DNA from: Stictocephala bisonia
Taxonomy: Eukaryota > Arthropoda > Insecta > Hemiptera > Membracidae
Assembly (NCBI GenBank): GCA_035578905.1
Contig: JAQJVL010000059.1
Coordinates: 2,406,636-2,470,635, forward strand
Reading direction: 5' to 3'
DNA: 64,000 nt
In this document: piece by piece, positions 1,217 to 63,555 of the stretch
Numbering within the stretch: position 1 is the stretch's first letter
Layout of the letters: each line of letters begins with the position of its first letter
The notes under the pieces: model-generated
What the model saw: the letters and a program-made list of their open reading frames with translations, nothing else
The model's database searches: none
What the model was told of the DNA's origin: nothing
Translations under genes and position numbers: made by a program

Positions 1217-4200
1217 GTATGTTTTTTAATTTTGACTAATTTTATAAAATAATGCAAAATTATAATTCTTAAATTATGATAGTTTAATGAACTGCAACTG
1301 AACAATTAATTATTTAATATTGTTCATAAAATATAATGTGTCTTTTTGTGGGTTTACATTAATAAGTGTTTTTATTACAGTTATTTACTCTGGAAAATTG
1401 TTCACAAAACCCTCAAAATGGAAATCTTGCATCTTTAACTATTGCTGCCCAATATAGGCTAAAGTTGGGAGCCAGCACTGACTGTTGTTGTTGTTGTTGT
1501 TGTAAAGTTGTGCATAATTGTATTAATAAAGCCTACCTATGTTGTGAAAACAAACTAATTTTCAAGTAGTTCATACTTTACTTTCTGTTAATAATCCATA
1601 TAATAGGAAAATTTTAGTTAGGCGTTTTGTTATAAATTTATATTTCATCCATGGAAACAGGATTAAGAAGAAAAAGACTTAACACGTTCACTGTTGAGCA
1701 AATATTATGTTCTTTAACATATGCTGAAACTATAAATGTCAATTTTAAAAACTATCTCATAAATAATAAAAATCTAAAACTAAAAACGAATACATCTCAA
1801 AAGTCATATAACCTCTAAATACAAATTTATAAAAGACACAACAATCACACTTATCAATAAACCATTAATTGGCTGTAATCAGCTGTTTTACTCCGTGACA
1901 CACAAGTGTGTTTCCAGCAGTGAACGTGTTAATAAAGAATCCAATGAACAAAAATCTAATACAGATCCCACATATTTATTACCTTGTTATTGTATTAAAT
2001 TTGGAACACAGACTTTAGAAAATAATGAAAAGTACACTCTTGCACACTTTGTGCATCAACCAGATCCTCGCAGTAGCGCTTCTCTGCCTTTCGCCTCAGT
2101 CCATCAAACCTCATGTCAGTGAAAACTGTATTTGCTTAATTTTTTTCACATGCTAAAAATTTTAGATACATATTTAGCTCCAAGAAACTGTTATTCCATA
2201 TTTTTTGTTTTACAGATTTTGTTTGCGACAGTGGGGACCACACATTTTTATCAAAAATCTAAAGAATTTTTGGATTCAGGAGAAAAATATCTTTAATTTT
2301 ATATCCTAATTGACTTACAAAGTCAGTATTAAACATCTTTATGGTTTTAAAAAGTTTAGTTGTGGCCTTATATACATAAAATTGTTGAGTTATAAACTGG
2401 TCAGTAACATGTACGGTGAGCTTTGAAACAACAACTTCCCATGTGCTGAGTTCTGAAAATGTAGAGTCGTAATTTTAGAGTTAGATTTAAAAAAGCAGTT
2501 TTTGCATAAGAGATCTTTAAAATTAAATCCCAACTGTTTGAATGTTCTACGTGGTTTAACATTTCAATTTATGATGATCACCCCTTACTGTGTAGTTTTA
2601 TCCTGTACTTTTCAGAACAATTGTTTTATGTTTTGTGTTCTCTATATTTCGCTATTCCGCCCCCCTCTCCAGCATACCTGCCAACCAGTCCCCACCCCAC
2701 CACCTGTTATAAAGCTGGAAGGTCACTTGCCGATTTCAGTCTCAGAGAAACCACTGAGGATGCCACATCACAGTATGGGTGAAACGTCTGGTCATCTTGT
2801 AAATATTGTAGATAGTACCTTGACGCGGTTGTCACCGGAAACTGTAGATTCTAGTTATTGATGTATATATTTGATACTTCAGAATTGTTGTTTTACTATA
2901 CAATTTTGAATCTTACAATATTGGTATAAAAATAAATGAAAACTAATGACATTTCCTGTGACTTACTTACTACATCAAACGTGTTGAAAGATTAAGTCTA
3001 AAAACACAACATAACAAATTTCAAAATTCTAACTCTTTAGAAGTGCCTAAACATTTACTGTCAGTAAGCCGTTTAGATTATAATGAGTGTGAATTTGCAA
3101 ATTTATATTTATACCTACATGTATATAATTAACTATTTTACCTGGTACTCGTACAACCTGTTGATGTACAATACATTGATATTCTTTCTTTGTTTACAAT
3201 ATGCATTACCTTAGTTTCACTCTGAATTAAAATGAAGGAATGAACCGAGTCAAACTTCTGAATGGTATATTATAAATTTTGTTCAAGCACTGGTAAAGAT
3301 ATATTCCAAATCAATACAGTAGTGTCATCTGCATATAACATATATTTATGCTACGATTAATGGACCTAAAATGACCCTTCAGGTACACCATAAAGTAGGT
3401 CCTCTCTGAGTAATTCTTATACATATTCTTTACTGTTCTATACATTCTTAAACACATTTTAAACTTTGTTATACTCTATGTATCATTCTTCCACCCCCCC
3501 CCCTTTACCCAAGTTTAGTTGAAACTGAGTTAGTCTCTCTCCTCACCTGAAGTAACTTTATGAACATTTGTGTTATCTCTGTATTTGTTTTCTTGTCTAC
3601 TTTTTAGTGGAATTTTCTTCTCAGATAAATTTGCTGATGCCTATTGTATCTATCCTATCATATTTTATTATATTATCAAATCAAAATGCCTTTATTCATA
3701 AAAAATTATACATAGTGTATACATCCAGTAGTGCCAATAAATATTCTACTTATGACTATATAAATTATCTAGATTATATGGAGATAAAGTTAAAAGATAT
3801 GTTTTTAATTTAAATTTATCAATAATTACTTCATTTTTAATTTGGTTTGGAATGAATTTAAAAAATGAAGGCCTTTGTAAGAGGTTTTGCTTTTGAACAT
3901 TTCAAAATTGTGCTTTTCTGTTGTTAATTGATTACATTTAAAATATTGATGGGAATGGTTATGAATTTGGTGAGCTTGATAAGTTTTTTTTTTTTTAAGG
4001 ACTGGTTGTAAAATGAGTAAACCAGAAACGGATAAGATTCCCAAATTATAGAAAAAGTGTTTTTAATTGATTTTTAGAGTCTATTCCAAGCATTATTCTA
4101 ATAGAATTTTTCTATTAATAGACTTTTATCAAGGTTATTTTTTTAGGTGTTGCCATATATGCAGAGTCCATAAGAGATATGTGAATGAATAAGCGAAAAG

Positions 4201-7200
4201 TAGATTATTTTCAAAGTCTCTAGACTGCTTATTTTAGATATTCTCCGTAGGGCATAAACATTAGAAGGTGATGTTTTAAAGGTGGTATTTATATGATCAT
4301 TCCATGAAAGACCGCAGTCAATTACTAATCCTAGAAATTTTTTAATTTTGTTGTATCTACCTAGTCAATTACTGAATCACTGAATGTTTGGATGATTTTT
4401 TTCTTTAGACTGCCCTGTAGAAAAGGTGATAAAATTGGTTTTTGAAGTGTTGGGTAGAAGATTTTTTTCTATTCAGATAATTGTTTATATATGAAAGGCT
4501 TATTTTATTTATTTTGATTAAATTTCTTTTTGATCTTTACTTGCAATTAATTGTAATATTTGCATTATTCGCATACAGACACGTCCTACCTCCCTCCGAG
4601 GGCACCACCCCTTGCAATCCCTGTATGTAACAAAGAAACATGAGAGGACCCAGAATGGAGCCCTGGGGACACCACAGTAACCATCTGCAATGAAGATGCA
4701 AATTTTTCAATAATTTTATAATCAGAAACTCGGGAAATTTCAACATATTGCTTTCTTTCAAAGAAATAGGATTGAAACCATGAAAGTTCTTTTTTCTGAA
4801 CCCCAAGCTCATCCAACTTATTTATCATCATTTACACTGTCAAATGCCTTGCTTATATCTATGAATATTCCTAATACCTTCTCACCACCACCAATAGAGT
4901 TTATCACCAGTTCAACAAACTCCACACCTGCTGTTATTGTTGATTTTGCTTGACGGAAACCATGCTGTTGTTTATCGAATAATTTATTTATATTAAGATA
5001 TGAAATTAATTGCTTGCTGACCATCTGCTCGAATATTTTTTAAAAGAGGATAGAATTGAGACAGGCCTTAAGCTGGAAATATCATCTTTTTCCCTTTTTT
5101 TAAAAATTGGGATGACTTTTGCGATTTTAAGTTTATCTGGTAAAATTCTAGTTATGAGGGAGAAATTGACAACATATGCTAGTGGATTGAATATAATATT
5201 TTTGACAGATTTTAATATTGAAACTGTAATATCATCAAAAATGTGATGTTGCTTACAACAAATCAAATTTGATTGAACTGACCATGATTTGTAGGTGATA
5301 TGTTTGGAGAATCTGGTAAAGATATGTTGGCTACCCAGCCAGCCAATAAGAAACCTTTGTTTACCAGTTGGCAGCAGCCTTCTGATCTCTGGACTCCTGG
5401 TAAGTTATATTACCTAATTACTCTCTACTGTATTTTGCTTAATAACATATCGTATTATCTTTTTCATTTTTGAAAGCAATATATTGTACATAAAAGTATC
5501 AGTTTTTTTTTAAATAATCATTTTAAAAGTATTAGACATTAGACATTATTTATTCTGAAAAAAATACGAAAAGATGTATATCTCATTCGTCATTACAGAT
5601 AAACTTAAAATAAATAAACAACTAGTGTTAAAATGCCCCAACTAGTATCCTCATACTTTTCCTAAAAAGTAATCTTTGTTATAAAAACCACAGCTAAAAT
5701 AGTTGCTGTGATAACGATATTTTGACAAAACTAAAGATTTTTAGATTGAATTGTAACGATTGTGGCATCCTCTTTAAATTCAAAATATTACCTTTTAACA
5801 ATAATTCACCAAGTTTGGTATATAATAAATTATGACTGACTATTTTTATTATATAATTCCTGCAATATCGCAGCCAGTTCAATCTAAAGGTAATTAATTT
5901 GTTTAAGTCAAAACCTAAAAATATGTTGTTTTTTTTTTTTAGATGAAGACGCTCAGAAAACGTTTGATGACAACCCAGCTTCTCACAGGTGAATATATTT
6001 TACTCTATATTAACTGCATCTGATTGAGATGGTCCCAAGAAAAATTCACACTCCCATCCTTCAAAATGTTCAACCTGCATGTCCTTTCCTCCATCTTCAA
6101 AAATTAAACTAAATAATATTTAACAAAATAAAAGTAAAGAATCTCCAATGGTCTTGAGGAGAACCAGCATAGCTTGTTGAAAGAATATTATTTATTTGAA
6201 TTCTACATTTTTTTAGGAATTCCTATAAGAAATGTAACATTATTACTTCTCTGTTCCAATTTGTTTTTACTCTATGTATTCGTTCTCCATTCATAGCATA
6301 CGAGGCGTGTTTTTAAAGTAAGTACCGTTTTGGAATCCTACCGCTGTAGCGCTGCGATCGGTGTTCAGCGCATGCACTCTGGGTACTACTATCTGTTGGC
6401 AAGCCACAGCCACCGTTACAGATCAATTCGACTGTATTTAAGGTCGTTTATGACTGTTTAAAATTCCTCCTCTGATTAAAAATGCTGCCAACTGTAAAGT
6501 ATATGTTGTGATAAGTTTTCGTAACACTAAAGGCATGAAAGCAGCTGACATTCATGAGAGATCTGTGAAGTTTATTGAGAAAACAGAATGAGCCACAGGA
6601 TGGTATGGAAATGGGCGAGAGCTTTTAAGGTGGCCTTACAAATGTGCATGATGAGGAACAAGTGGAAAACCTTCACTCATTATTGATGACTTGGTGCAAA
6701 ACGTTGATGAAAAAGTCAGAGAAAACAGATGCTTTAACAACTGCACTGTTATGTACTGTGTCTTTAAGTTTCAAGAAGTGCGATTTATGAAATAGTGACA
6801 GAACTTTTGAAGTAGGCCTACAGAGAGTTTTGCTTACACTAGGTTCCCAAAATGTTGACGGAGAATCACAAAAACAAATGTTTCGCGAGAATCACAAAAA
6901 CAAATGTTGAACAGTTCTCTCACATTCCTAAAGCATTAGAATTGTGATGGTTATGATTTTTAAAACCAAATTGTTATGGTGACAGACTCACGAGGAATGT
7001 CATCTGCTTTCACGCCCTTAGCGTTATTAAAACTTACACAGCGCATAATCACAGTTGGCGGCATTTTTCATCAGAGGAGGAATTTTAAACAGTTATAATC
7101 AACCTTAAATACAGTCAAATGGATCCGTAACAGCGGCTGTGGCTTGCCAATGGACAGTAGTACCCAGCGTGCATGCGCTGAATGCCGACTGCAGCGCTAT

Positions 7201-10200
7201 AACAGCGGGATTCTAAAACGGTACTTACTTTAAAAACACGCCTCGTAAATCAACTTCGTTATTGATATGAAGGTCGTCTGGTTACGTATCACAGATGATA
7301 TTTTACTAATAAGCTACTAACAAATTGTTTTTCTGCCATAATTTTCATGTTAACAATATTTTAAGTTAGCAATAAGTAGCATTCAAACATTGCTGACGGT
7401 TATCAACCTGTCTTTGTATCAGGTAATTTTGTTAAATACATTGGTCTGTAAACAGTTAGTAGTACTTTTCTTATTAAATTGTTTTATTGACGATTAACAC
7501 AATCGTGTATTAGTAAAATTAAAATTTTTGTTGTAATAAAACTGTTTATGTAAAGAAATGGACAAGTCTTGGCTGAATGTTGTTATACTAATGGTTTAAA
7601 AATATACTATAAAAATATCTCTTACCATGGGTCATTCATTTCTATTGATGTCAAAGACAACACTTATGTATTCAACAACTAATCAAAAAGATTTGTGTAG
7701 TGTCCATCTTATAGTAATAGTATAGATATGAATATAGATACTTCATATCTATACTATAGTAATAGTATAGATATGAAGTTGAAATTAAGAAATAAACACA
7801 TTCATAAAGTGTTCAATTCAATTCAAAATGTCTTTATTCAAGTATTGTACAATACATACAAATGAATGGCGTCAAACAATTCTTATTCTAAGTACTAAAA
7901 CTAAACTAGTTATTTATAAACTTGTAAAAACAATAAAATTATGCATATTTGCAGTATAGATACATACTATTTGATTTTTTAAGTGTATTTAATTTTTACC
8001 CAGTAATTGAATAAATACTTTTTAAATAGAATTCATCAAATCCATAAAATGCATTAATAAGTAAATATTCTTTTAATTTAGTTTTAAAGATTTTATCAGA
8101 GGGTTCACCTTTTATTTCTATTGGGAGGCTGTTAAAAAATCTAACACCTGTTTATTTTGGATTCTTTTTGAACTTTTCTTTGGTATGTAGCTTTATTTGA
8201 AAGTCTTTCCTGTTTCTTGTATTATACTGATGAGAATCCAATTGTTTAGGAATTTCCTTCTCATTAGTTTTTATGTGGAGAATAGTTCTATAAATATACA
8301 TGCTATAAATTGTCATTATTCCTAATTGTTTGAAGTGTTCTCTACAGTGTTCATTGACTTCAAGATTTAACATGAGCCTTATTGCAATTATCTGTAGATG
8401 GAGGATTTTATTTAAGTTAATGAGGGATGTTGCTCCATATACTTCAATACCATAAGTAATGTGGGAATGAAGTAGAGCGAAATAAATTGATTTTAAAGTC
8501 TTTATGTCACAAAAGGGTCTTAGTCTTCTAATAACAAATATACCAGTGCTCAATTTGTGGCAAACTTTATTCATATGACTTATCCAACTAAAATTTTTGT
8601 CCATATTAATTCCCAAAAAATTAGTTTCTTCAACAAAGTCTATATCTAGATTTGTAATGATAGGGTATTTTTTTAAAATTTTTATAGCTAAATTTCATAA
8701 AAGTTGTTTTTTTGGCATTTAATAATAAATTTTGATCGGCAAGAAAATGTTTGATTGTAGTTATATTTTTTTGAATAGTATTTACTGCTTCAGCCATTGT
8801 TGAGCTAGATGCTGAGAGGCTTATATCATCAGCATATAGGCATACAGCATGATTAGTTGCTGGATCTGAAGTCTTCAGAGTTTCAGGCAAATATCCGATA
8901 TATGCAAGAAACAAGAAAGGTCCAAGGATCGATCCTTGAGGTACCAAATAAGCAATTTCTTTTGTTCCTGATTGAACTGTTTTTATTTATTGTTAGTTGT
9001 ATGTCTAACTTCTACATACTGCTTGCGCCCCTCTAGATAAGATTGAATCCATTTCAACTCTCTATCTTTGACCCCATAAATTTGTAATTTTTGAATCAGT
9101 CGATTATGACAAACGCTGTCGAAAGCCTTTGTCAGATCCAAGCACCAACACTATGCTCTCCCTTATCCAAGCTATAGATAATGTGTTCAACAAAACTTGT
9201 TAATGCAGTTATGGTTGATTTGTTTTGTCTGAATCCGTGTTGTTCGAGGTCTAACAATCTATTTACTTCAAAGTAATTAATTAATTGGTTCAACATACAC
9301 TTCTCGAATATTTTTGAGATTGAAGGCTGTACTGCAATTGGTCGATAATTTGATTTTTCTGTTTTATCCCCTGTTTTAAAGGTTGGTATAGTTTTAGAAA
9401 TTTTCAGTTCATCTGGGTAGACTCCTGTTATTAGTGACGCATTAATAACATGAAGGAGTGGCTTCAGGATTGCCCATTTTGCGTCTTTAATAATTCTGGT
9501 AGGAATTTCATCGTAGCCGGCAGACCATTTAGGTTTTAGTGATGTCTAAAAGTTCCTTCTCATTAATGGTCCTACAGTGAAATTTCAATTTTGTAGTTGG
9601 GGCTTCCATACTCATTGTGTGAGAAATGGTTGGTAGGTTTGGTAATACATAGTTTTCAACCACTTCAGAAAAATAATTGTTTAAAATATTAGCAACTTCT
9701 AAGGGATTTGATTTAATTTGATAATTTTGTTTCAGTTTTATTTTAGTGGCAGTGGATTCTACATCTTTTTTTATATCTGAGTTAACTAATTGCCAGACAG
9801 TTTTTGAAACATTACTTGAATTAGCTATCTTGTTTTTGAAATAAGATTTTTTTTTGTAAATTATATTTTTTCTATATTGTTTTTTTCCCGCTTTAGTAAT
9901 TTTTGTAACTGTTCATTTTTATTATGTCTGTAAAAATGATAATTATTGATTAGATTTTTGCGTTCAAATTTAATTTCATCGTCTACCCATTCAGTAAATT
10001 TATTCTTAATTCGTTTATTAACTTTTGGAAAATTTTTATAAAAATAGTACTTCAAGACATTATAAAAATAAGAGAATTTGTCTGTAACTGTGGTTTGGTA
10101 CAATTCAGTCCAGTCTTCAGTTTGAAGCTCCGTAATGAATCTACTAATATTTTCTTTGTTAAAAACTCTTACTAATTTACTAAGTTGTTTATTACTTTTA

Positions 10201-13200
10201 CATTTTACAAAATCATTCATTGTTAGCAACTGACCATTATGATCTGAGAGTGCTGTTATTAAGGAGGCTACTTTAAAATATTTCCTCTCAATGTTTGATA
10301 CAAAGTTATCCAATGCAGTTTCACTGTCCTCAGTGACCCTAGTTGGTATTGTAATCATATAATACATGTTGTGCATGTTAAGCAAATTGACAAAGTTATT
10401 CTTTTTGTTATCATCAATCAATACATCAATATTAAAGTCCCCTCCAACAATAATATTACAATTTATTTTTCTTAGCCTACTTAAAAATAAATCAAACTTC
10501 TCAATAAACAGTTCTACATTTCTAGAGGGTGTTCTGTAAACACCTGCAATAATCAGTTTAACTTTGTTTAAAGTAATTTCCACGGCACAGGATTCAAAAA
10601 TTTTATCTTCATTCAAGGACGATGTTATAGTTTTTGCCTCAATCCCATTTGAAACGAGAATCAAAACTCCACCTCCTTCATAATGGTCTCTAACGTAATA
10701 ACCAGCTATTTTAAAACCCGTTATGTTTATTGCCGTTATTTCATTTATTGTTAATTTGTTTTCGCTTAATATAACTATGTCAGGTTTTAATTCTTCAATT
10801 GTAAATAATAATGCATCGATTCTAGTTGATAAATATTGGATATTTTGGTGAAATATGGTTAATTTATTACAATTTAGTAGGGATAGATTTTTGTTTTTTG
10901 TATTTTTTAATCTGGATGATCTTTTTGGAAAAAATGTTTTAAAAAAGGTTCCGAACATTTCGTGGAAATTACTTCAACTTCATCTGCATTTTTAGGTAAA
11001 GAGTGGCTTATTGTGTTATTTAAAGATATAGGAACAAATTTTACATTATTTACAAAGGGGCTGTTACCCTCAAAAGAGGCATTTGAGCAAATTACTGAGT
11101 CTTCTTTCTGTCTTGCACTAGTAAGCATCATGGTAGTTGTTTTTGTCACTTCCGGGGAGATACTGTTATGTCCCTCATTGGCATTTGCTGAGTCCAGATC
11201 TTTTTCTTTACTTGATAGAAAGTTGGGAGAAATATGTAGCTTCAGCTGACATATAAATTCCTTATAGGGAAGTCCGTTTCGAAGCTGCCTTCTTGATTGT
11301 TCGTCGTGACAGATAATATGAACCGTAGCACCTGTAGTTTGTTGAAATTCTTTGATTTTAGTTGCAAAGTGTTCTATGGGAATGTTATCACGTGTACACC
11401 CCATAGGTGAGCATATAAGATGTGTGAGATTTCGGGTTTTAAAGTCTTCTGTAAATGTAGTAAAAGCTAGATCATAGTTATTTAATGTGGGTTTACTATT
11501 GTATTCTGGTTTTGTAATCAGACTGAAAACTGAGGCACCGTTGTTAATTTTCTGATATGCTAGACGTTCATTTATTAGATTTGAGAAATCTGGCCTACCA
11601 AACTTTTGTCTGAAAACAGTAGGGTCTGCGGAAACAGCCTGCAGTCATATTTCTGTTGCTATTTAGGTCTGATGAGATGCAGTGGGCAAATGCAATTGAA
11701 CAAAAACTGCACAAAGATTCAAGTATTTGTAAATAGTTGTGATAGCGTATGTAGGTTGGTTCGTGGTTCTTGGTTCTGAGTACTTTGTAATACCTTTACG
11801 CCTGACGCCCATGAATCAAAGAGTAATGTGTGTTTGTTAAACAACAAATTCAGAAGACTATTTAAGATAAGAGGTTTTATTTCTGTACCATAACAGTATA
11901 CAATATTTTGGGAATATGAAGCATACATAATACTTCCTAAAACTCGGTAAAACCATATATTTCCAAAAACTAGAGAATGGTAGCATCTAATTTATTCTCA
12001 GGGAGTGATTCTTTACATTCTTCCACAAAGAAAACATTTATTTAACATTTTGAATACTGTAAAAAGCGTAAATTAACTATTCAAATAAAAATGTATACCT
12101 TTTTGTTAAGCAGGATGTAATTAATAAACAAATTAGTTTACAGCGCTATTTAATTAAAACTTATATTACTAGAAAAATATATAAAACAGCCTGCCATTTC
12201 TGGGTTTGGACTAGATAAAAATAAAATAAAAATAAAACTTATTAAAACATAAAATCGCAACACAATTGATTGAATTATCACAAGTTATTTTAAAGTTTGA
12301 TATACAGTACGATCTTGTTTAACCAAAACCCTTTTAACCAAACTCCCGGGTTAACGGAATTGGGTCCAGTTAAAATATTTTTTTTAATTTCATTTCCATA
12401 AATAAATAACATCCTATTTTAATGATTTGATGTAAATCATTAGCACTTTCCAGCGATGTGTAATGACATTCTGACATTATAACGACGCTTGCTAGTAGAG
12501 TTCAGGCCGACTGAAAGTGTAACTTATGTAGTATGTTGTCGAGAGACAACAATGACGCACACTGTCTACTCAACGCTCACGCAGTAGGCATTCAACGACT
12601 GTATGCATACTGCGTTGACTGTAGCCTACTCGAAAATCTTCGTAGGGCGCTTGGTAGCGATGACCCATCATCTACGTTTCACTTGTCACTGTCATTTCAT
12701 TTCACATTCTGAACTTATTGTGTTAAAACATATTCGAGATCGATCAGCATGAAAATGTTCATTAAATGTAAAGCAGAAGAAGATTAACGATTTTTTTCAA
12801 GAAAACAAATTGAACTTTATAAAGAATTGAGCTGTATGTATAATTCTTATTTTGAACTTTGTTAATACAGTATTAATAATATTAAATAAGAATGTTAAAT
12901 ACTCTTGAATAAGAAAAATATTTCACAATAGTGATTTAATTTTTTATTACTGTAAATTACTGTATTTACTTATTCATTAAACAATAATTTACCACTAGGG
13001 TAATTTATTATTATATTACATTATGCACTAGACTTGTTAGTTTATTATGTATAGTATTATAATAATGGTCTTGCTAAGTTAAAATTGAGTATTGTATGAC
13101 CCTAACAACTTGTACAGAATATTCATGCCGATTCGAACTTCGAATACATAGATCGGCGATGCTCTTCTGATATAGTATCATACAATTGAAGGGGCCCTTT

Positions 13201-16200: not shown

Positions 16201-19112
16201 GCCCGAAGATGATTCCAAGTCTTAAAATTGGGTTTCCGCCGCATTTTCCGTGTCTACGCCATTTTGAAAATGTTACAGCCCGGGCGGTAGTCAGCTCCTG
16301 GCGCCCTCCACCGACTGCCAACTGCATCACCGATTCACTTTCACTTCACTTTAGTCCATTAAAACAAGCCTATGACTTATAAATTACCAAAATAATAGTT
16401 TGTAGTATATAAAAAAGATATTTACATATATTTGATTTACTCTAAAAAAATTGACACAGGTACACTCTGTGATGAACTAAATTTTGAAGTGTCAGCAGTA
16501 CTAAATGAAGACTTAAAAGTTATTATTGTTTCATTATATCATTCAACATCCGGAAAATCATACAAATTTCTAGAATCCCTACAAAAATGTCTTAACTTTT
16601 TAAATTCATGGTCTTCTTATACAGTTATTATAGGAGGGGACCTGAACTCGGCCTTTGACATCACAACCAATAAACCTACAGCTAAGCAATTTCAGAATAT
16701 TCTAAGACAGTTCAATTTCTATTGTGTAAATAAAATACCTACTAGAGGTAAGAGTTGTTTAGATAACGTATTCATAAATTCTAACTTAAGTAATAGTGTA
16801 AAATGTGAGCTTTTTAACTATCCTTTCTCGGACCATAACGGTCTGATTACAAGTGTGCCTATTACAGTCAGGGATAGGTCCATACAAACCCCAACTGTTG
16901 GTTTAATCCCACAAAATATAAAAGTCCCACAGTTAGTTCTTACCGAAAAAGGTGTTCTGTCCCTCGGGGAACATTTGGCCACATATGACTGGAAACTGTA
17001 CCTAAGTAATAATGTTAATGCTTGTCAAAATTTTGAAATATTTTTTGAAATTTTTGTGGACAGTTTAAATAATAGTTTTCAACTAAAAAACAGTATTCAA
17101 TCAAATAAAAAAACTCAGAATAAACATCACTGGTACACGGATGAACTTGCCTCAATGAAGAATAAATTGTTATTCTACAATAAAATTATAAAAAGTAGTC
17201 ACAACCCTAGAGATGATATGGTTAGCCAAATGAAAAATCTCAAATATCAATATCGTACGGCTCTTAAGCAGGCAAAACTAACATGGAATGTTGGATACAT
17301 AGAGAATAGTAACAATAAGTGCAAGGCTGCCTGGAATTTGATAAATAAAAATAATAGAACCACCCCCCGTTATTCTAACTGCAATATCTCACCAGATGAA
17401 TTTAATAATTTTTTTATTGGCTCAGTTAATGGTATTCAAGATAAACTTATTAAAACTCCCATAACAGCAGACGATTTTATAAACAGAAAACATATAAATA
17501 AAGCTAATTTTAATTGGAACTATATTACCTCACATGATATTATACAAGCAGCAAAGAGACTTAACAACTCTAACAGTAAAGACATTTATAACCTTTCTAA
17601 TAGCACTCTAAAAGGGATAATCCAAACAATTGCCGTTCCTCTAGCATTCTGTATAAATAAATTACTTGAAGAAGGTGTATTTCCCAACCAGCTAAAAATA
17701 TCTAGAATATGTCCAATATATAAAAAAGGGCCAGTAAACTCTCCACAAAGTTACCGTCCCATATCAATATTGCCAATAATATCCAAAATTGTTGAAATAA
17801 TTGTGTATGACCAACTTAGTGCTTATCTTGAAGTAAATAACTATCTTAATGTAAGCCAATTCGGCTTTAGAAGGGGAATGTCAACAGTGGATGCAATGGA
17901 TGAATTAGTGCAAGAAGCCCTTCAGGCATTTGAAAAAAAGGCCTATGCTCAGGCCACTCTCTGTGACCTGAGCAAGGCCTTTGACTGTGTCAATCATAAT
18001 CACCTTTTAAACAAACTAAACTTCTATGGAGTTCAAAATTCTTGTTATAATTTTTTCCGATCATACTTACAAAATAGAAGTCAAAAAGTGTTAATTGATG
18101 GTATTTGGTCCCAAGAGTCAAAAGTCAACTTTGGCCTACCTCAGGGATCGGTGCTGGGACCTCTCCTTTTTTTAGTATCAATGAATGACCTCCCTGATTT
18201 TTTAAAAGCCAGGACAATATTATATGCTGACGACACTACTCTGGTAAATTCCGCTACAGATGTCAATGCTTTGGAAAATCTAACCGAAAACGCACTCCAC
18301 GACGCCACTATATGGTTCAATGCTAACGGATTTCTTCTGAACCAAAATAAAACCCAAAAAATTATATTTAGTTTAAAAAATAATGTCTCTGAGAGCCCTG
18401 ACTATCTTAATTCAGTTAAGTTTTTGGGGGTTCTTATTGATAACCATTTGACATGGAGCCAACACATTGACTCAATTAATCCAAGACTTAACAGGGTAAT
18501 ATATCTATTGAGAAGTCTCACAGATAAGATCCCGGAATCCTATACCAGAACAGCATATTTTGCGTACTTTCAATCAATAATACGTTATGGTCTCATACTC
18601 TGGGGAAACTGTAGTAGAATAGGGGAAATATTAATACTCCAAAAGAAAGCCGTAAGGGCTATAACTAAGTCGGAAGGGGATGAACATTGTCAACCCTTAT
18701 TTATAAGAAAAAAAATACAAACGATAATTAATCTCTATATTTTTGACTTAGCCCTATATGCAATTAAAAATCAAAGTAGTTATAAATATAGTTATGATAA
18801 TCATAACTATAACACAAGGACTAGGGATAGTGCCGTCATACATTTTTCTAGACTGAGTAAATGCCAAAATAGCCATACCATTATATCTATAAAAATATAC
18901 AACAAGTTAAAGATATTCATTGAAAAATATCCTATTTTGCAATTCAAAAACAAGCTATATAGCTGGCTATTAGAACGCCCTTTCTATAAACTAGAGGATT
19001 TTTTTGCCACTGTTTCCATAGAATTTTAGGTTTTTAGAATCTCATACAACACCTATAATAAATTATTCTTCAGTCTTTTTTTTTTAACTTTTAATATCAC
19101 ACTTTAACCAAT

Positions 19113-19682: not shown

Positions 19683-22600
19683 TACAACAGTCTGGATGTT
19701 TGTGTTTTTACACTTTATGGAAAGTGTCGAAACACTTTTCTGGGCAGGCCTTGCACACATACTTTGACTTCTTCCTGGTTTTATTCACCCTACATACATG
19801 GCAGTCTTTCTGGTGGATCCTGTTGGGATTATCAGGTCGAGGTTCAGTCATTGTTAGTGTGTTAGGGGTTCCTCGAAAGGGCATGATTGGCAGTGGATTG
19901 ACAGGTTTCGGCAGCAAGTTTTCTAGGACAGCGAGATGAAAATCATAGAATGTCCACTTATTCCTTTCTGCTGCACCAACAGTGTAGATGTTGTGCAAAG
20001 TATGTGAATTCGGCAAGAGCATGTGAATGATGTGCACCGCAAGCTTCTTATACCAGCGGAGTGTTTTCCTCTCCACTGGGTAGTATGCCATCATTTGATC
20101 GCCTCAGTCTACCCCCTTCATGAAACCATTATATTTCACTATAGGAAGAGGCTTGTCACGTACGATGTTTCGTTTGTTCATAGATTGAACCATGTCATTC
20201 TCGAATTCTGTCGAGATGTAACTAACAACCCGCTTGTCTTTCCACTTTGCGATGCACACGCCATCGGGGTACCTTGCTATGGTCTCCCCCGTTTTTAGCG
20301 TAGCAGATTTGACATCATTCGGACTGAATATACGGTCTATACGTAGTGTACAATATGTCTGTCTAGATAACAGCTTGCTATCTAACCTGAACGAATTATA
20401 ATAATTGTCCATATAGAGACTGTGGCTGACATCTAATTTCCGCTCCATTAGTTTCAACACAACATTTTCAGCGTGGCCTTTCCCTCCTAGTTCATCTACA
20501 ACTCCGCAATACACCAAAAATCTTAAAATTAGCCCATGGGGGTCGCTCAATGTGTATAATTTAATACCATACTTATGTTTCTTCCCTTTTAGATATTGGC
20601 GAAAAATAAGACAGTTCACACATGTCTATCAAACACAGTTCACACAAGGAAACAAAGAACATTAAAACTTTGTGGTAGGCCTACCACACACAGTTCACAG
20701 TCCACGGCGTGATCCGGAAGCAGACTCTCCCGGAGAGTCTGCTTCCGGATCACGCCGTGGACCGGGAAAGTCTGCTTCCGGATCACGCCGTGGGCCGTGA
20801 AATGTGTGTGGTAGGCCTACCAAAAAGTTTTAATGTTCTTTGTTTCCTTGTGTGAACTGTGTTTGATAGATTTTAATTAATTTGTGACACATCCCACTGG
20901 GACTTATTTATTTATTTATGTTCTTCAACCTGAAGATGCCGTATTCACAGCGAAACATGTAGTTAGTATTCTCACCATCACACGCTGTGAACTGTTTGAT
21001 GTGAAGGTAAAGTACACTTATTTTAGTCTATTTACAACAGTTCAGGGGCTACAAAATGGATTTTAAATATTAAAAGGCGTTAAAATTAGGGGTGTACGAG
21101 TAGCAGTTTTAGGAGTCGAGTTGAGTTTTTAGACATGAGTTTGGGTATTTTACCCTTAATTTTCAAAAATGAAAACAATGAAATGAAGTAAGCAATACAT
21201 TCTAACACTTTTTATTTAATTTGCTGAATAATTAATACAATTCAGAAAATTGTTTTAGATTCTATGAAATTATCAGTGATTAATTATAAATATTCATAAA
21301 GATATATGTTAAATAAACTGTAAAATAATATGAAAGATATATGTTAAATAAACTGTAAAATAATATGAAAGATATATGTTAAATAAACTGTAAAATAATA
21401 TGTGAAATATTTGTCATAACTTATAAAAAGGAGGCCTAAAATAAATTCAGAGTAAAAATTTAAAATTCTTAAACTAAACAAAAATTGCAATCTGGCGCTA
21501 AAAACAGTATATAATAGCCTTACCCCTAACTTTATTGCGAAAGTTTATCTATAAACTTTAATCAAATCAAACTCACAAACTTACCGCACTGTCAGTGTGA
21601 GTGTGCCACACTGTCATTGTGAGTGTGCCGCACTGTCAATGTGAGAGTGTCGCACTTTCAGTAAGCCAGCCTGTGCTTTCGCCATCAATCGGTCGGTAAA
21701 TATTCTCCCACATGTGTACCTTGGCTTTGACTGACAACACACACTCTTCTTTGTTTTATTAGTACTTTTTTAACTAAGTTATAAAATCACATTGTCTTAT
21801 AACTTGTACAGAACATGAGTCTGAGCCAATTAAAAATTGTTAAAAAAACAATGTTTAACACTTGAGAAAATGCACCTGAGCACAGATACATCTAATTTTA
21901 CCATCTGAAACTTTTAATACTCATTGTACCTTCCCAGAATAGCTTAGGTGTCCATAAAATAAGTAACATCCCTTCAGTTTAGATCAGTGAGCTTAGTGCT
22001 CAAGTGCGGGTGGTGGTCTTACAGTTATTTTTGTTAACCAGCCTTTTTATTCTAGTCGTTATTAGTTCCTCTTAAGTGTATACATCTAATATATATGAAC
22101 CATTCACAGTGTCATATAAGGGGCAAGGTTTAGGCCTTGCTAGTGCAAACTAACATATTCCTTATTGCATAACTGCATTGGCACATATCAAAATACCAAT
22201 ACAATGTATAATGTTTGTTGATGTAATAGTACCGTATACTAAACTTTTGTGATGCTTTTCTTGTAGCACATATCATGAAAAAGGACAAGACAATTTATTT
22301 GGGATTATGCATTTAATAAATATCATAGTCATACATTTCCCAAAGTTTAATTAATGGAAAATGTATTGAAAGTTGCAATGAGTTGCCCTATCTGAAACTT
22401 GTAGAGATCGTTTCACCTAGTAGCCTGCATGGACAGGCAGACACAGCCGTAGCAGAGGTTACATGACAGATCACACTGTGAGTGTCAGCTAGTAGCCTAC
22501 ATGGGCAGGCAGACACAGCCGTAGCAGAGGTTACATGACAGATCATACTGAGAGTGCCAGCCAGAAAATATCTGCTGTATTGATGATTTCATAAATAGTG

Positions 22601-28600: not shown

Positions 28601-31600
28601 ATAATTAGATTTAATGATTTTGTCAATGTCCTTCCCAGTTCTGATTTTCACTTTGAACTGAACTAGTTCATATAATGAACGGACTAGTTCACTAGTCCAC
28701 TAAGCTGACTAGTTCATTTGACTCGATCGTTCGTGAACTACCCGTCTCTTCACTCCTGCTCTCCAATTACGATCGGATCGGTACATCGTGTGTCAGTAAT
28801 GATAACTTCAATTACTAATCATTGATTGATAATGGCTGCTTCTGGAGAGTGTATTGTTCTTAGTAACTGCTCAGAGAAAATACTACTTAAAACTCTTAAA
28901 ACAGATTATTAGACATAACCCAGTACGTTCTGTGATGTATACGTCTGCAACCAATGGAAATATTGGTATTTTTTCAGTCCAGTACTGTCCAACAGAATTT
29001 GGCTTTTTTTGCTAGTCAGACAGGCAGGTTATCGGAATTCAGTTAAGTTGAGTAGTAAAGAACTAAAAAGTACAAGTGCATTTGCATCTTTCATCTATAA
29101 GTGGTCATCATTACAATCTTGGTCAAATAAACTTGAATTAAATATAAATAAACAGAGTTTTTATCCCTTAATTTATATTTTACTTCTATATTAAACATTT
29201 GGGAATATAATTTATATAATTTTGGATAAAAACAGTATGTTTATACGATTCTAAGTAATTACATAACCAGAAGACAGCTCATTCTTGGAACAAATGGTTA
29301 GTTAAAATATTTTAATAACAAATTTTACATTCTTTTCTTTGACTTGGTAGTTGTAAATAAAATATAATAATATTTATACTGTCTAATAATTTAATCATAA
29401 TACTGTGAACGAAGGATATTTATCAAACAAAATAATTAATTTTTCGACAAAGAACATGATCAATATTTGAGGGAATAAATACAAATTCCAAATAAAATCT
29501 ATAATTCAATTATATAACATCGCTTGCTGGTGATTCTGAACTATCTTAATTGTTTTCAGTTTTTTGCTCCCACCACTTTGACTTATCACATAAGGGACGG
29601 CACCCGCATTCCTCCCTTTTTAGAAACATGGTTTTATACAATTATTAGTTTATTATTTATTATTATCAGAGACGATTTCTTTGTTTAAGTTAATAAATAT
29701 CATAATTATTATGATCCTTTGAATTTGACCATAATTTTAGGAAACTAAGGATATTAGCTTATTTCCACACAATTTTTTGCTCTCTAAATATTAAAAATAA
29801 AACAATTTAAACTGTATAATTGATTACTGTATTTAAACTTAATTATTTGTGTATTGAGTTTGTATGTAAGGTACAAAAATAAAATAACGTATTTAAAAAA
29901 GCCTTTTAAAATATTTTAATTTATAACAGAATTGAACGATAATTGGAGAATTATTAAATGACTTCTCCGAAATTACCTCAATATAAATAAAAAGGTTTAC
30001 CCAACAAGTTTCCTTAGATCTGTACAGAAATGTGGCTCACGCTCTTACCGGCATCCGCAGGCCAAGGTGTCCTTGTAGCTGGTGTGGGTGAGATGGAAAG
30101 CGGTCTTCTTCGAATCTTGTTAATTTGCACATTTCTTGAGGTCGCAAACATGCTTTCCGCACTAAAGTTCATGCACACAATGCGATCACCAACCTATACC
30201 AAATTGGTTCAAGTGTGCAACAATACAAAACCTGTTATTCAAAATCAGGATCATCACTAACTAATAAAAATTCTAAGGCATCAGCAACACTGTTACTTTG
30301 CATTAGAGCTGCCAATGTCACATTCATTTTTTGTTACTTAAAAATACATTAGAATGGGAAAGTTTATCAGCAAACTTTAAACCTTCTTATGTTTGTAGGT
30401 CATGAAGTTTTTCTATGTATTTAAATTCAATATTTAAACCATTCCCAGGTATTATTACCTTTTTTCAGCTAATGTGTACAATAATAATACAATATTAACA
30501 TATATTACAACGCACAACAAAAATATAACATCTATTAACTTGCAAAATCAACAACAAAAACAAAAGATTGCGTCCAACACAGTCATCTGGTGCATGGTAA
30601 GTGGTGGCTTCTTATCCACTTTCTAATGTTGGGGGGAAGCAACCTACAGCCGGCTCATTTCTGGCCGCCCGTCACCGCATGAACTAGCATTCCATGTTTA
30701 TAGGTCTATGTTCGACTGTGGTTTTTATCTCAAATCTGATAAATTATCATTTTCTATATCTCACCCTTTATTGTGTCACATATGGTTGAGATATTGGGAA
30801 TATTGTAATCCTAATTGAGTTGTTTTTATCAATATTTATCTTTTTCAGATGGGAAGATGATGATGAAAATGATCTTTTTAGAAAATCAAACAATATTTCA
30901 AGTACTAGTTTGCCTAAGAGCTCTCTGCCATCAAGTAAATTGGCTAAGAAAAAAGATGATTTATTTGATGATGAAAGTGATGGAGATTTATTTTCCAACT
31001 CAGAACTAACGAAATCCAACAAATCAAAACCAAGTGATATTATCAGTTCAAGTGGATCAACCAGTAGTCTTGCAACAAATAAAACACAATCAAGTATATC
31101 AAAAAGTGATCTCCCACAAAGAAAATCAATACTCTTTGGTGATACCACAGGTGAATCTGAAGAAGAAGATGATTTGTTTTCTAGCAAAAGCACTTTTTTC
31201 AATCCAAAATCCAACGATCTTTTTTCAGATGACATATTCAAATCAGATACTAAAGATATATTCTCTAACCTAGAAATTCCTAAAGAGACTAATTTAGTGA
31301 AAGGCAATTCTGTTAGTAAAGAAGTTGATTCTTTGTTTTCCAATAACATTTCATCTCATCAACCAATAACCAGTGAAAGATCATTTAAGGATAAAAAAGA
31401 AAAAGTCTTCTTTTCCAATGATGAATACATATTTGGAGATAAAGGATTTCTTGAAGATGACAGTTTGCTTGGCCCTTCAAACGTATCCAAACAAGCTGTA
31501 AATCAGCCTCGAAGTAAAGACCAAAATGCATCTCAATCTCATACAAAAAATTTAGTAAAAAGTAAACTTTGGGAAACCGATGATGATGATTTATTCAGTA

Positions 31601-34600
31601 ATACAAGTGTTACATCTGTCAAGCATATCAAAGATGCTGAATTGCCGTTCAATAGCAAGAATAATTCTGATGCGTTGAAGGGTGATTTGTTTGGTTCATT
31701 AAAACTACCAGAAAGTCACATGAAAGGAAAACCGGAGATTTCAAAGCTTAAAAAAGGCATAGAAACAAGATCTTTATTTGAATCTGATTCTGATGATGAC
31801 TTATTCTCATCACCTCAAGGATCTTTAAGTTCTAGAAAGTCAGTTCAGATGGCTAATGCTGCCATAGGACATAAAGACATTCAGAAACCAAGTACTGTGG
31901 AAACTGAAGATGTCTTATTTAAAAGAACAAAAACAGACTTTGGCAGTATTTTTTCAGATGATTTAAATGAAAGTAGTAATTTGATAACCAGTAGTGATAT
32001 TTTAGCTAACAAGAAACATGACATTTTTGAAGATGATGTTGGTATGTCCTCTGGTTTAATTTCTGATATCAAAACACCAGACTTATTTAAATCTGAATCG
32101 AACAATTCAACAGAAACTAAACAATCTTTAGGAGTGTCTGACGCTAACAGGAAAGATAATGAAGGCATATTCATAGAAGCTATAAATCCAGAACTAATAA
32201 GTTCAACAGTAAAACAGGCCTCTGTTTCTAATACCAAAGATTTTTTCCCAGAAAACACAGATTTGTTCGAGGATATCACTGTTAAAAATGTAGAAGTTGT
32301 AAATGTTAAAAAAACTGAACCGCCTCGGACGTTAGACATTAAGCCCATACTAGGTAACCTATCAAGTAATAAAATACATTCAGCAGATAAAAAAGTTTCA
32401 GAAAGTGTTCAAAAGCCACCAGTGTCTACAAAACCTTCAAAAAAATCTAGTGAAATTAAAGAAGATAGCTCAGATGCTACAAATGATGATATTTCCGTGT
32501 CCTCTCATGTATCAAGAACAATACCAGGTATGTATTTCCAAACTGTACAGTAAATTAAAATACTAACTGACACAATGGTCTCTATGGTTTGGCATTCATA
32601 GAGTTGGTATATGTTTATTAAGTATCAAATTATACAATACTATAGCAGTTTGCATGCACTTCACTACAAATAAAGTAGATGTCTTAGTACTAGGTATAAA
32701 ATAAACTGAAATAACTTAACCAATGTGACACATCATTTAGATAGTTGCAAATGCAATAATACCCTTTAATTCTGTGATACCCGTTAAAACTTGTGTATAT
32801 TTGTAAGTATTTACAAATGTTATATTAAGTATTATAAAAACATTAGTTTTCCCTAAATAAAACTCAAAATCAAAATGCAGGTGCCTTTGTTAATAGTGCT
32901 GAGTGGATATTTAAAAACTTAAGAAATCAAGGAAAGGTTGTTGTTTTGTTCTTCATCTCTTAACCAGCCTGGGTGTGCCGTCAAGCCTCACCCAACTCAT
33001 CCTGTCCAAGTACTTAAGCTCTTCTTGTGTTTGCCGTTAAGGCGCAAGTCCTCCTTAGTATGGTCTATCCATTTCTACCTTAATCTGCCCACTTTTCTTT
33101 TGCGGACAGTCCCTCTAGTAAGGCAGTTTTTCTCCTCTCTCCCATCCTCCATTCTCATTATATTCCTAAACCAACTTAACTCTGCCTTTCCAATCTCTTC
33201 TGTGTTTAAACTATTGCATCCAACATTTTGTCTTATTTCTTATTCTGTTTTGTTTTGATTTGTGTAACAACTTCCTAAAAAATTTCATATCTGTTACCTG
33301 TATTCTGCTTATATCTTTTTTGTTTGTTGTACATGTTCTAAGCTGTATTTTAAAATAGGTATAAAATATGCTCTAAACATGATTTCCTTAGTTGTCTTTG
33401 GTACTAAGTCATTCCATAACTTAGTAATGACTAAGTTAGTTACCTTGTCAAGTTAGTTGTACAAGGTAACTAACTTAAATAGGTAACTATCCACTTTGCT
33501 GCTTAAAATTTAGTTATGTTTCTTTTGAAATATATTTGTGGCAATGAACTTGTATCGACACTATTCATCTATACCATGGATATGTTTTATGGTGTGGTAT
33601 GGAAAGACAATCTTATCTTAAGGTTCTTATTTCATGGCTTATTTTAAGGCTAAAGAGTTAGCCTTATTTAGACTCCTTGCGAGTTAATCTTTTACATTCT
33701 TTGTAATTTTAATACCGGTGCCATTCTCTTAAGTGATCTATGTTCTGGAAGGTTTTGTTTCTTAGTCTAATAATAACTGGTGAGGTGTTTTTCATAATTG
33801 GTTATAGTTATAGAGTTCTAACAAATTATATTGTTGGAATAATTTTTATAATTTTATATATAATTTTTATGGATGTTAAGTTTTTTATATTTCAGTTATT
33901 TTTTATATTGTTGTACTGTTATACTGTTGTTAAATTGTTTCTTAGCTAATAACAATAAGGAGTAGACGTATGTTGGTTGATACTAAACAATGATTCTTAA
34001 ATCAGGCACAGATTTTTTTTTAAATCCGTAAACAAACAAAACTCTTGAAAAAAATCATTTATCTCAATATTGCATAAAAATTTATTATAAATTCGGCTTT
34101 GATTTACCATTCATTTTAAGTTTTTTTTTTTTTTTTTTTTATATAAGTGATTTGTCCAGTTTCATAAACTATTAAAATACAATAGTAATGCATATTTACT
34201 ATCCCAACATTATACAGGGTGTTTATAAAGCCCCGAACCAGCTTAATGATTTCTGAACGATTACAGATAAAGCAATAAAACTTAGTACATAATTTCTGCA
34301 CCTATAAATCTATTTTTTGAATTAACTACCATTTTCTGTCATATCAGGGGTCTAAAAGGAGCCAGAAGAAAATCTTAATTGAGAACATAGGTTGAGTAGT
34401 GCATAAAATAAAAAGTCTTTAAAAGTAGAATATAAACCCTCAAATACAATATTAAAAGGTTCAACCTTTAAAAAATGATGCTCGATTAAAGTTTTAAAAA
34501 ATTACAATTTAGGTTCTGTTCTAGACGGTTTAATATTCTTTTCTTGGCTCAATTTGGAAACGTTAAACTTTGTAAATACCTACTGGACTAAGGAAATAGA

Positions 34601-37600
34601 TTAGGGAGAGTCATGACCAGCAGTAAAACATTAAACAGACATCCTTCCCTTGCAGAGCGGTAGTTATAATCAGCAGTAAAACATGGGACGGGCATCTTTC
34701 CCCTGCAGAGCAAGAGGGCCTTTACCATTAGTAAATATTGAGCAGACATCTTTCTCCTACAGAGTGGGAGAGGATCCATAACCAGCAGTAAATTATTGAA
34801 CAGACATCTTTCCCTTGCAGAGCGGGAGGGTCATAACCAGCATTAAAACATTGAACAGACATCTTTTCCCTGTAGAGCGGGAGGGTCATAACCAGCAGTA
34901 AAACATTGAACAGACACCTTTCCCCTGCAGAGCAGGACGGCCATAACTAGCATTAAAACATTGAACAGACACCTTTCCCCTGTAGAGCAGGAGGGTCATA
35001 ACCAGCAGTAAAACATTGAACAGACATCTTTTCCCTGTAGAGCGAGAGGGTCATAAACAGCAGTAAAACATTGAACAGACACCTTTCCCCTGTAGAGCGG
35101 GAGGGTCATAACCAGCAGTAAAACATTGAACAGACATCTTTTCCCTGTAGAGCGGGAGGGTCATAAACAGCAGTAAAACATTGAACAGACACCTTTCTCA
35201 AGACATTCAGCATAGCAAATTAATATGATTAATGAGAGGGATTTTTCATCTTGAATGCATTACTTTGCTGTAGTCAGTAGAAATAAAAGATTTGCTACGA
35301 AAAGTTTGATGTAGGGAATCATAAATAATGGCTAGGTGGCAATAGGCAGTTAATCAAATACTGATCAAATACATTCTGACAACACTTAGGTGTGTTACTC
35401 TGAAATAATGTTTTGTTAAAGAAATTATATTTACTTATTTTACAAATGTTTTAGTATGAATACACAAGTAACCATGAACTTATTGACTATTATCTGCAGT
35501 TTCTATTATTAATTATTTATTAAAACATTAAATACCATTAATATACTATTTAAAAATTGTATCTACTTTTCAGGTATAACCCATGGCCAGGCTTGAGATC
35601 GTTCACAAGTAGATCATTTATTTGTTTATTTAAAATTAAAACTGTTGTAAATTGATTTTGTTTTTTTTTTTTTTAACTTTTATTTGTATTGGCTTCTTAA
35701 CTAAGTTTTAATAAATTTGTAATTAGACCATTTAAGAACTGAATTGTACATTAGAAACGTAGATATTTAATTTCAAAATTGTTTGTTCAGTTTGTTACAA
35801 TTGTTGTTTGATTCAAAATTCTTTGTATATCTTTGTTTGATTAAAAACATTATTATATCCTTAATATTACTATACTGGGTTTTCATTTAATTGTGTATTT
35901 GTGTTTTATTTATTTATTTTTAAGCATTAATTATTAATTTATAGTGATCTTTCCTAAAAACAGGATGCACTTATCTAATTGTTAATATATCAGCGAAAGT
36001 ATGTTGTAGCAAGCATATACGAGGCATGTTTTTAAAGTAAGTGTCATTTTGGATATTTGCTGTTATAGCACTGCGGTCGACGTTCGGTGTGTGCACGCTG
36101 TGTTTTTGTGTGAATATTATAATTTGAGGAGATATTTCAAACACTCATAAACAACCCTAAGCACTGTTGAATGGATCCATAATGGCAGCATGGCGTGCAC
36201 ACACCAAATGCCGACCGTAGCGTTGGAACGGCGGAATCCTAAACTACTTTAACTCTCAAACGCTTACGGGACTTATTAGAGTATGTAAACTTCAGAATAT
36301 TGACGTGATTTATATACCACTGGAAACGTAAAGAAACTCAGAGTCATATTATGTATTTCATTTGTTTATATGACAACCCTGTCGTCATTTGTAGAAGATG
36401 GAAAATTGATATTGAATTAAAGTGAAAGCTCACTGTTTGCCATTTGTTGTTTACAAAACTTATGTAGCTAGCTACTGTATTGTTCAACTTTTTTGCCGTT
36501 GTTTTAGTTAATATTATCAATTTATTTGTTTCTTTTGTGTTTATAGTGTTACTTAAAGTACCAAAATGTCTTTTTGATAACGAGTGGAGTGTTTTTAGTT
36601 CTTATAAAATGTGTAGGCTAATACAGTGACGTAGTAGAAGAAGGTTATGTAGGTTGTTGTGAATTTATAATCATATTTTATGTTTATAAATAGTAATGAA
36701 CAAAGCAACCAGATAAAACATTTTATAGAGTATTTTCATAGCTAAATTATAGCATATAATATAAAAATATAATCATCTTATCCTCACACAAATAAGTTAT
36801 AACTGTATCCATGGTAACGAATTTTGGGTTTCTGCTACTTTTTGCAGTTTATGTAATATAAGTCAGCTGTTTTTCAGCTAATCTTAGTAAAACTATACAT
36901 TTACTGAAACTAGACTAAATATAGAGGCTTTTGGCTATCTTGGACATTTGAATGTATTTATATAATACTTTTCCCAGGTATGGTTCCCCTTTTTTTCTTT
37001 TCTTGCTAATGGTTTTTTAATGTTTCATTGAAAAGGAAAAAAATTATTTTTATTTATACATCCATATTATTATAACCACAGTGCTCTCCTGTCTGTTGGG
37101 AACAAAATTATACCACAGAAAGGTAACTAAATAACGTACAAATGTTTTTTTACATTTTATTAAAAAAACTGCAAAACACCCAAAAATAGCCTGCCGGTTA
37201 GAGAATATTAATGTGCCTGTTCTAGGGTTAAAAACATGCCTCATATTTATAAGCTAATATATGTATTTGTGTGTGTTTGTGTACAATTCGTGCAGAACTC
37301 TTTGTTCAGTAGATTGTGGTAGTACATCCTTTTCACATAACCATCAGAACAAAACAAGAACAATTCCTTAAATCCAATAGGAATAGTTTTCACCAAACTT
37401 TTTTTAAATGTAAGGCCATTTTGTGAGAAAACGAACTGATATTGAAAAAACCTAAAATATCAGTGTTGTAGAAAATTGTATTCCGTACATGAAACTTTGT
37501 TATTGTTTGAAGTTCAAAAAATCGTTGACGTCATGTACCTATTTTTTTGTCAGTATAACATTTTTCAAAAGTAAGGCCGTTTTATGTAGTAAAGGTTTAG

Positions 37601-63330: not shown

Positions 63331-63555
63331 TTAAAGTAATTGTTATTTGTAATGTACGTATGTATCTAAGAGTGCTTGTTATGTATTTGAATTTTTTTTT
63401 TAACTTTTCTATATATCTGTAAAATGTGCATTTAACATAAAAATATATAACACAAAACATAGTGATGGCAAGTGATGTTCTCATGTTTGTCTGCTAGCCA
63501 ACATGCAATGTAGTGCAATTGTAGTGGCGCCAACAGGCACTAGGGGCGCAGTGCT

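Follow-up and report, generated by a model that had tools for sequence, protein, structure and literature searches.

A TARG1-like macrodomain in the first open reading frame of LINEs from Stictocephala bisonia

The proteins encoded by the first open reading frame (ORF1) of long interspersed nuclear elements (LINEs) are poorly understood, and the types described in print are mainly those with RNA-binding, PHD, zinc-knuckle and esterase domains (PMC4120745). Among the 448 elements covered in that study, CR1, L2 and Jockey ORF1s carry PHD, RRM, CCHC, Tnp22, coiled-coil, esterase and zinc-finger/leucine-zipper (zf/lz) domains, the esterase type being limited to two vertebrate groups; PMC3905857 describes an ORF1 with a coiled coil and an esterase and finds it spread more widely among animal phyla. 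TARG1-type macrodomains reverse ADP-ribosylation of nucleic acids: TARG1, in which K84 has a catalytic role, acts on thymidine-ADP-ribosylated DNA (PMC8501950), and uracil ADP-ribosylation is reversed by TARG1 and by TARG1-like macrodomains of flies and bacteria (PMC13036486). Here we describe a 64,000-nucleotide stretch of the membracid Stictocephala bisonia (assembly GCA_035578905.1, contig JAQJVL010000059.1, positions 2,406,636 to 2,470,635; hereafter the window) that contains a decayed LINE copy on its minus strand. The end of its ORF1 encodes a TARG1-like macrodomain with both catalytic residues kept, for which hydrolase activity is predicted. An earlier note, made from the letters of the window, had proposed such a LINE.

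A TARG1-like macrodomain at the end of a LINE ORF1

In a single-sequence search of the PDB with the window ORF, five TARG1 sequences came top (E 0.0078–0.0098), the remaining matches up to E 10 being two helicase/primase sequences (E 1.8–1.9). A profile of the window and seven relatives matched the five TARG1 sequences, at best with 8e-14, and had no other match up to E 10, which upholds the proposal of a TARG1-like domain in a LINE first ORF. The profile of 12 relatives built without the window recovered it with an E-value of 1.4e-47 (11644–10910) and, in another frame, of 5.8e-8 (segment 11795–11598, which holds the AHCISSD block). A chance match was ruled out, as 20 windows shuffled by 2-mers inside blocks of 1 kb scored at best 11.4 bits against 158.7. 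The macro-domain search suggested in the earlier note thus succeeded with the profile and failed with Pfam, in which the window ORF had no macro match at E<=1; the Pfam Macro model was seen in one of the first seven relatives (P0004, E 0.12). The assignment therefore rests on profiles and structure rather than on Pfam. The domain has a macro fold, and the AlphaFold2 (AF2) model of the ORF1 remnant shows block means mostly >90 over about residues 21–140. Below TARG1, Foldseek also lists PARP14, PARP9 and a macrodomain of Thermus, and the 50 structure matches listed in a VIA comparison include no other macrodomain families, which is uninformative about those families.

The Lys and Asp used by TARG1 are both present as codons, as had been noted (Table 1). 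The Lys is kept in 92 of the 93 alignment rows that have a residue there, and the Asp, whose counterpart D125 of TARG1 we take to be catalytic, in 75 of 79; these rows include stand-alone TARG1-like proteins, and the mean commonest-letter frequency over the alignment columns is 0.56. From its sequence, the macrodomain looks able to remove ADP-ribose. Macrodomains are often readers, and the MBD and PWWP domains at the N-termini of longer ORF1s (see below) are reader domains as well, so that the domain might do no more than bind RNA, ADP-ribose or poly(ADP-ribose) and thereby help in targeting or packing, any catalysis being incidental. The retention of Lys and Asp far above the column mean argues against such a role, which we regard as doubtful.

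The minus strand from 11725 to about 7815 is one LINE copy according to ORF calls, Pfam and the profile search. The match to four other copies (L032, L003, L005 and L006) ends at 11722–11725, the 5′ limit; therefore, of the extent 10907..11760 first proposed for the macrodomain ORF, 10907–11725 stands and 11726–11760 is flank. The 5′ truncation falls in the first residues of the macrodomain, and the 3′ limit is inferred from an AATAAA...TTGAATTGAATTGAA tail. Since the relatives' profile matches two parts in different frames, the macrodomain is split by a frameshift near 11640, which agrees with the need for a joined translation seen earlier. The overlap between the ORF1 and endonuclease frames is 52 nucleotides (nt), the length already estimated, provided that ORF2 starts at its first Met (10958).

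The reverse transcriptase is recognised by RVT_1 at 8630–8986 (8e-13) and at 9132–9545 (5.6e-5, below the curated cut-off); the C-terminal region of ORF2 matched no Pfam family at E<=1, and a PDB search with the window endonuclease and reverse transcriptase pieces gave no useful match. The frameshift inside the macrodomain and the shifted frames of the ORF2 pieces indicate that the window copy is dead. Its identity as a LINE is given by an endonuclease/exonuclease/phosphatase (EEP) domain and a reverse transcriptase downstream of ORF1, in the window and in the related locus L031 (RVT_1 1.8e-28), and by the dispersal of copies over many contigs (150 scored places), the window copy being itself truncated. 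We presume a likeness to the CR1/L2 lineage within the Jockey superfamily, as a general resemblance rather than a placement by reverse transcriptase phylogeny.

Relatives, domain mosaics and constraint

In the genome of origin (1.683 gigabases, 11,105 contigs), the window ORF was matched at all 150 places scored, the best of 2,124 first-look candidates, many of them in long open frames. Besides the window place, seven rows show 80–95% identity (two are parts of one locus on contig C40), followed by two shorter pieces at 85–86% and by other families at 37–55%. When the complete L031 ORF1 served as query (44 of 7,029 candidates scored, 48 rows), six places cover residues 1–1041, and five of these are stop-free at 99–100% identity, from which recent activity of the L031 family follows. 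With P0008, a LINE protein of Homalodisca vitripennis, all 98 places scored among 5,602 candidates (111 rows) hold SGNH and macro parts, 85 in one stretch and 13 in two as counted from the table, at a best identity of 57%. These searches favour the best full-length matches, and the frequencies hold among those rather than among all copies. The macrodomain adjoins a relative of the window endonuclease in 14 further loci (L003, L006, L009, L013, L031–L036, L078–L080 and L082). In the family of the window copy, L032 (94% identical in the macrodomain) has Ulp, SGNH and macro parts, split by stops, that extend upstream of the cut point of the window copy; no MBD was found upstream in this decayed locus, either with the L031 and L036 MBDs as queries at E 1e-4 or by eye.

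Three protein searches yielded 102 proteins, 19 of them annotated as Homalodisca vitripennis and two as Graphocephala atropunctata, so LINE relatives are present in both of these leafhoppers. A tree of 56 rows was built from 53 of the 104 aligned domain rows (>=118 residues), the window piece, a fragment of human TARG1 and P0100, four stand-alone database proteins having been entered whole. It separates 51 element-type domains, the window included, from five stand-alone TARG1-like proteins with support 100/100. Insects do have host TARG1 genes (fly Targ1-3, PMC13036486), and a host gene or pseudogene lying beside a LINE, or captured once at this locus, would also place a TARG1-like ORF next to an endonuclease. 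The 14 further adjoining loci, the 150 matching places and the separate grouping of the element-type domains make this explanation extremely improbable, and capture at a single locus, which the earlier note had named as the outcome that would undo its proposal, is refuted by the copies found in the host genome. Searches for related loci in collections of viral contigs and of genome contigs gave 0 confirmed in each.

Within the LINE group of the tree, the Graphocephala protein P0019 consists of three double-stranded RNA-binding domains joined to a LINE-type macrodomain, and P0036 of Homalodisca is its sister (59% identity). A domesticated LINE macrodomain or a chimeric transcript is possible for this pair.

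Nine ORF1s, from loci picked for their long open frames and not as a random sample, were read from the N-terminus (Table 1). They are 784–1058 residues (aa) long where complete and begin with an MBD (four), a PWWP (three) or a FLYWCH-like domain (two); the SGNH esterase and the macrodomain are found in all nine and a SENP8-like Ulp protease in eight. The original description of the first ORF as a macrodomain was thus correct and incomplete, the long ORF1s adding esterase, protease and N-terminal domains. In L081 and L082, which belong to two families, the order is permuted and the macrodomain stands ahead of Ulp and SGNH. A relative of the window endonuclease comes right after or overlaps ORF1 in eight of the nine (E 8.7e-6 or better); L081 stops before that point, so that the endonuclease is next in all eight ORF1s read far enough. 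The families of L033 and L034 may make a single polyprotein of ORF1 and endonuclease. With Pfam, the endonuclease was seen in L033, L034 and L079, fell below the cut-off in L031 and was not seen in the L035 and L036 pieces. GDSL_2 was above the cut-off in L036 and below it or absent elsewhere; where Pfam is weak, SGNH calls rest on motif letters and on the SGNH fold of P0010. By this fold, the Pfam match and the Ser motif, the elements have an esterase (type IV) ORF1, the window copy being truncated before the esterase.

The closest solved structures are SENP8 for the protease (3.4e-18; 4.9e-21), MBD2 for the MBD (3.2e-10), and fly LD23804p with the HDGF/LEDGF group for the PWWP (2.1e-13). All 10 ORFs that have the macrodomain keep its Lys and Asp, all 10 that have the Ulp domain keep its His, Asp and Cys, and the SGNH Ser motif is kept in 12 of 12, the Ulp and SGNH letters being those that we take to be catalytic. 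Sequence and His-Asp-Cys triad make the Ulp region a SENP8-like protease, whose substrate tag may be NEDD8, SUMO or another. A FLEL-like motif at the C-terminus of ORF1 tails was considered and is not claimed, as the loose pattern occurs in 20 of the 102 proteins with clear false matches among them.

The ratio of nonsynonymous to synonymous divergence (dN/dS) on the macrodomain, a check that the earlier note had called for, was computed pairwise (Nei-Gojobori) for 74 loci, L007 and L028 being left out of 76; 20 of 2701 pairs were dropped for short overlap and 2010 of the 2681 left were saturated. The pairs are not independent, some loci overlap (L012/L031, L002/L032 and L006/L022 among them), and loci found by protein similarity lean to kept frames. 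Values of 0.15–0.22 were obtained for pairs with dS above 0.03–0.05, with medians of 0.22 (27 pairs, dS 0.05–0.2), 0.17 (four pairs, 0.2–0.5) and 0.21 (344 pairs, 1–2), and no pairs at 0.5–1. When the parts of ORF1 were compared, the macrodomain gave 0.19 (25 pairs, dS 0.03–0.3) and 0.15 (218 pairs, 1.0–2.2), SGNH 0.39 (50 pairs) and 0.48 (three pairs), the linker 0.34 (54 pairs, dS 0.3–1.0) and 1.36 (two pairs), and Ulp 0.17–0.36 on four pairs; the MBD had one pair (0.20) and the tail none in the dS bins. The macrodomain is under purifying selection and is the most constrained among the well-sampled parts of ORF1.

Table 1. Coordinates of the window LINE copy, the ORF1s read in related loci, and the repeat arrays of the window
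Feature	Location	Strand	Basis or content
5′-truncated, decayed LINE copy	7815..11725	-	5′ truncation at 11725, 3′ end at low coordinate
N-terminal macrodomain part (AHCISSD block), other frame	11598..11725	-	profile match 5.8e-8 to segment 11795-11598
ORF1 remnant: most of the TARG1-like macrodomain and C-terminal tail	10907..11644	-	245-aa ORF; PDB phmmer, relatives' profile, AF2 model
Lys (LITK) aligned with catalytic TARG1 K84	11510..11512	-	alignments; codon checked
Asp (GCTRD) aligned with TARG1 D125	11387..11389	-	alignments; codon checked
ORF2 start: EEP domain, overlaps ORF1	9861..10973	-	Pfam PF03372 2.9e-7
ORF2 reverse transcriptase pieces, shifted frames	8630..9545	-	Pfam RVT_1
ORF2 C-terminal region	8152..8694	-	open frame; by eye like C-terminus of L031 ORF2
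L031 ORF1, 1041 aa			MBD 1.1e-15, Peptidase_C48 1.4e-10, SGNH, macro
L036 ORF1, 992 aa			MBD, C48, GDSL_2 1.1e-8, macro
L035 ORF1, 935 aa			PWWP 2.7e-12, C48, SGNH, macro
L079 ORF1, 951 aa			MBD, C48, SGNH, macro
L080 ORF1, 970 aa			MBD, C48, SGNH, macro
L078 ORF1, 1058 aa			PWWP, C48, SGNH, macro
L033 ORF1	1970-5200 of locus		PWWP, coiled coil (by eye), SGNH, macro and EEP in one open frame; no Ulp
L081 ORF1, runs off locus	1729-3999 of locus		FLYWCH-like N-terminus (by resemblance only), macro, C48, SGNH
L082 ORF1, 784 aa	1462-3813 of locus		FLYWCH-like PF04500 5.7e-4 (below cut-off), macro, C48, SGNH
L034 ORF1, tenth, N-terminus not included	3582-5699 of locus		SGNH, macro and EEP in one frame
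Tandem repeat array	34604-35197		unit 55 bases
Tandem repeat array	38290-38788		unit 81 bases
Tandem repeat array	47766-48458		unit 66 bases
Tandem repeat array	63554-63966		unit 172 bases

Elsewhere in the window, a second LINE ORF2 forms a long open frame at 16399–19029 on the plus strand (RVT_1 2.7e-32), near which the ORF1 profile finds nothing significant. A DDE transposase piece, presumably of piggyBac type, lies at 19708–20625 on the minus strand (PF13843 1.5e-24 at 20104–20625). One or more exons like the WASH complex subunit FAM21/WASHC2 are found at 51555–53027 on the plus strand (PF15255 3.2e-4, below the cut-off), and 30790–32553 on the same strand is, we assume from its repeated acidic motifs, probably also FAM21/WASHC2.

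Possible roles of the ORF1 protein

Domain content, kept active-site letters, constraint and the link to a LINE ORF2 are observed, and from these we infer a mechanism. In the large mosaic protein encoded by the ORF1 of long intact copies, a reader probably docks the particle on marked chromatin and hydrolases act as erasers. The ORF1 protein would assemble with the element RNA and its reader domain would bring the particle to chromatin. The macrodomain would then remove ADP-ribose, the likeliest substrate being ADP-ribose attached to the bases of single-stranded element RNA or cDNA; nucleic-acid ADP-ribose is preferred here because TARG1-type enzymes are reported to reverse uracil and thymine ADP-ribosylation and because the RNA and cDNA strands of a LINE are exposed. 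The Ulp domain would free host repressors or repair factors from a ubiquitin-like tag, either NEDD8 or SUMO.

In insects, transcribed gene bodies are marked by both CpG methylation and H3K36me3, so the MBD and PWWP domains might steer insertion, and Piwi-guided silencing in flies needs SUMO, so the Ulp domain might weaken silencing. In this more specific form, which we put forward only tentatively, ORF1 would be a chromatin-directed set of erasers: interchangeable gene-body readers (of methyl-CpG through MBD and of H3K36 methylation through PWWP) would dock the particle, the SUMO/NEDD8-type protease and the ADP-ribosylhydrolase would remove silencing or blocking host marks, and the parts would be shuffled among families in an arms race.

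Several observations weigh against these proposals. Foldseek with the truncated model of the window puts TARG1 at the top, but with a weak score (E 0.016) and among unrelated folds. The near-identical macrodomain pairs (296, dS <0.05) have a median dN/dS of 0.50, taken over those with dS >0; constraint is thus weaker among recent copies, as would be expected if they are dead. In the locus L077 (695–3340), Ulp, SGNH and EEP share a single open frame that has no macrodomain, and three further places match the L031 ORF1 over the same limited range, as matches only. Since the long frame of L077 is open without it, the macrodomain is not indispensable to every family; the tail that normally comes after the domain is kept, which suggests a clean loss of the macrodomain in a lineage near the family of the window copy. 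Finally, PARP activity is reported to help, and not to block, human L1, a poor fit with a general anti-PARP role.

The reported help of PARP to human L1 integration and the L077 lineage also count against the main rival, the version of the earlier note, in which the macrodomain clears the nicked target site of ADP-ribose made by PARP and so spares target-primed reverse transcription. This version has in its favour that a TARG1-type enzyme adjoins a nicking-type endonuclease, the two being in the same frame in L033 and L034, and that ADP-ribosylated DNA made by PARP1 at single-stranded gaps is removed by TARG1 (PMC11102865). No such domain is found among the LINE ORF1s as tabulated in PMC4120745, and we consider action at the nick rather unlikely.

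Comparison with described systems

The portions of PMC4120745 and PMC3905857 drawn on here mention no macrodomain, Ulp, MBD or PWWP in ORF1, and searches of open-licence PMC papers by title, abstract start and term counts found none of the four in a LINE ORF1 among the matches listed. An esterase in LINE ORF1 is known; for the other four domains no record was found in the sources searched, nor was the combination found described. As the known LINE ORF1 types and the literature searched show no such domains, the elements are best described as having a variant LINE ORF1 and not as a new kind of element.

The family is large and was active recently, and its candidate erasers of ADP-ribose and ubiquitin-like tags, together with chromatin readers, point to host marks by which LINEs may be restricted or guided. 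The role of these marks is testable, since there is an established assay for every one of the domains, single domains are present in some families and absent from others of the same genome, and insertion sites can be set against gene bodies.

Viral macrodomains and the bdelloid retroelements with accessory enzyme ORFs (PMC5408684, PMC6431247) are likewise cases of viruses or mobile elements with accessory hydrolases. The bdelloid elements differ in that their accessory ORFs are of GDSL and DEDDy type; the terms "macro" and "Ulp1" do not occur in PMC6431247, nor do "macro domain" and "Ulp1" in PMC5408684. SENP8 (NEDP1/DEN1) and other Ulp1-family proteases are the best PDB match of the protease region and share its His, Asp and Cys letters, whereas the protease described here sits within a LINE ORF1. 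With the type IV LINE ORF1 (coiled coil and SGNH esterase, e.g., ZfL2-1; PMC3905857, PMC4120745), the present elements share an SGNH domain, and sometimes a coiled coil, upstream of an EEP/reverse transcriptase ORF2, to which they add the macrodomain, mostly the Ulp protease, and a reader of MBD, PWWP or FLYWCH-like type; the domain table of PMC4120745 contains none of these additions. The LINE macrodomain itself has in common with TARG1/OARD1 (C6orf130) the fold, the order of the blocks and the catalytic Lys and Asp, but with about 25% identity it is fused into a transposon protein and carries an extra C-terminal block (RxLRNGLxxxEF).
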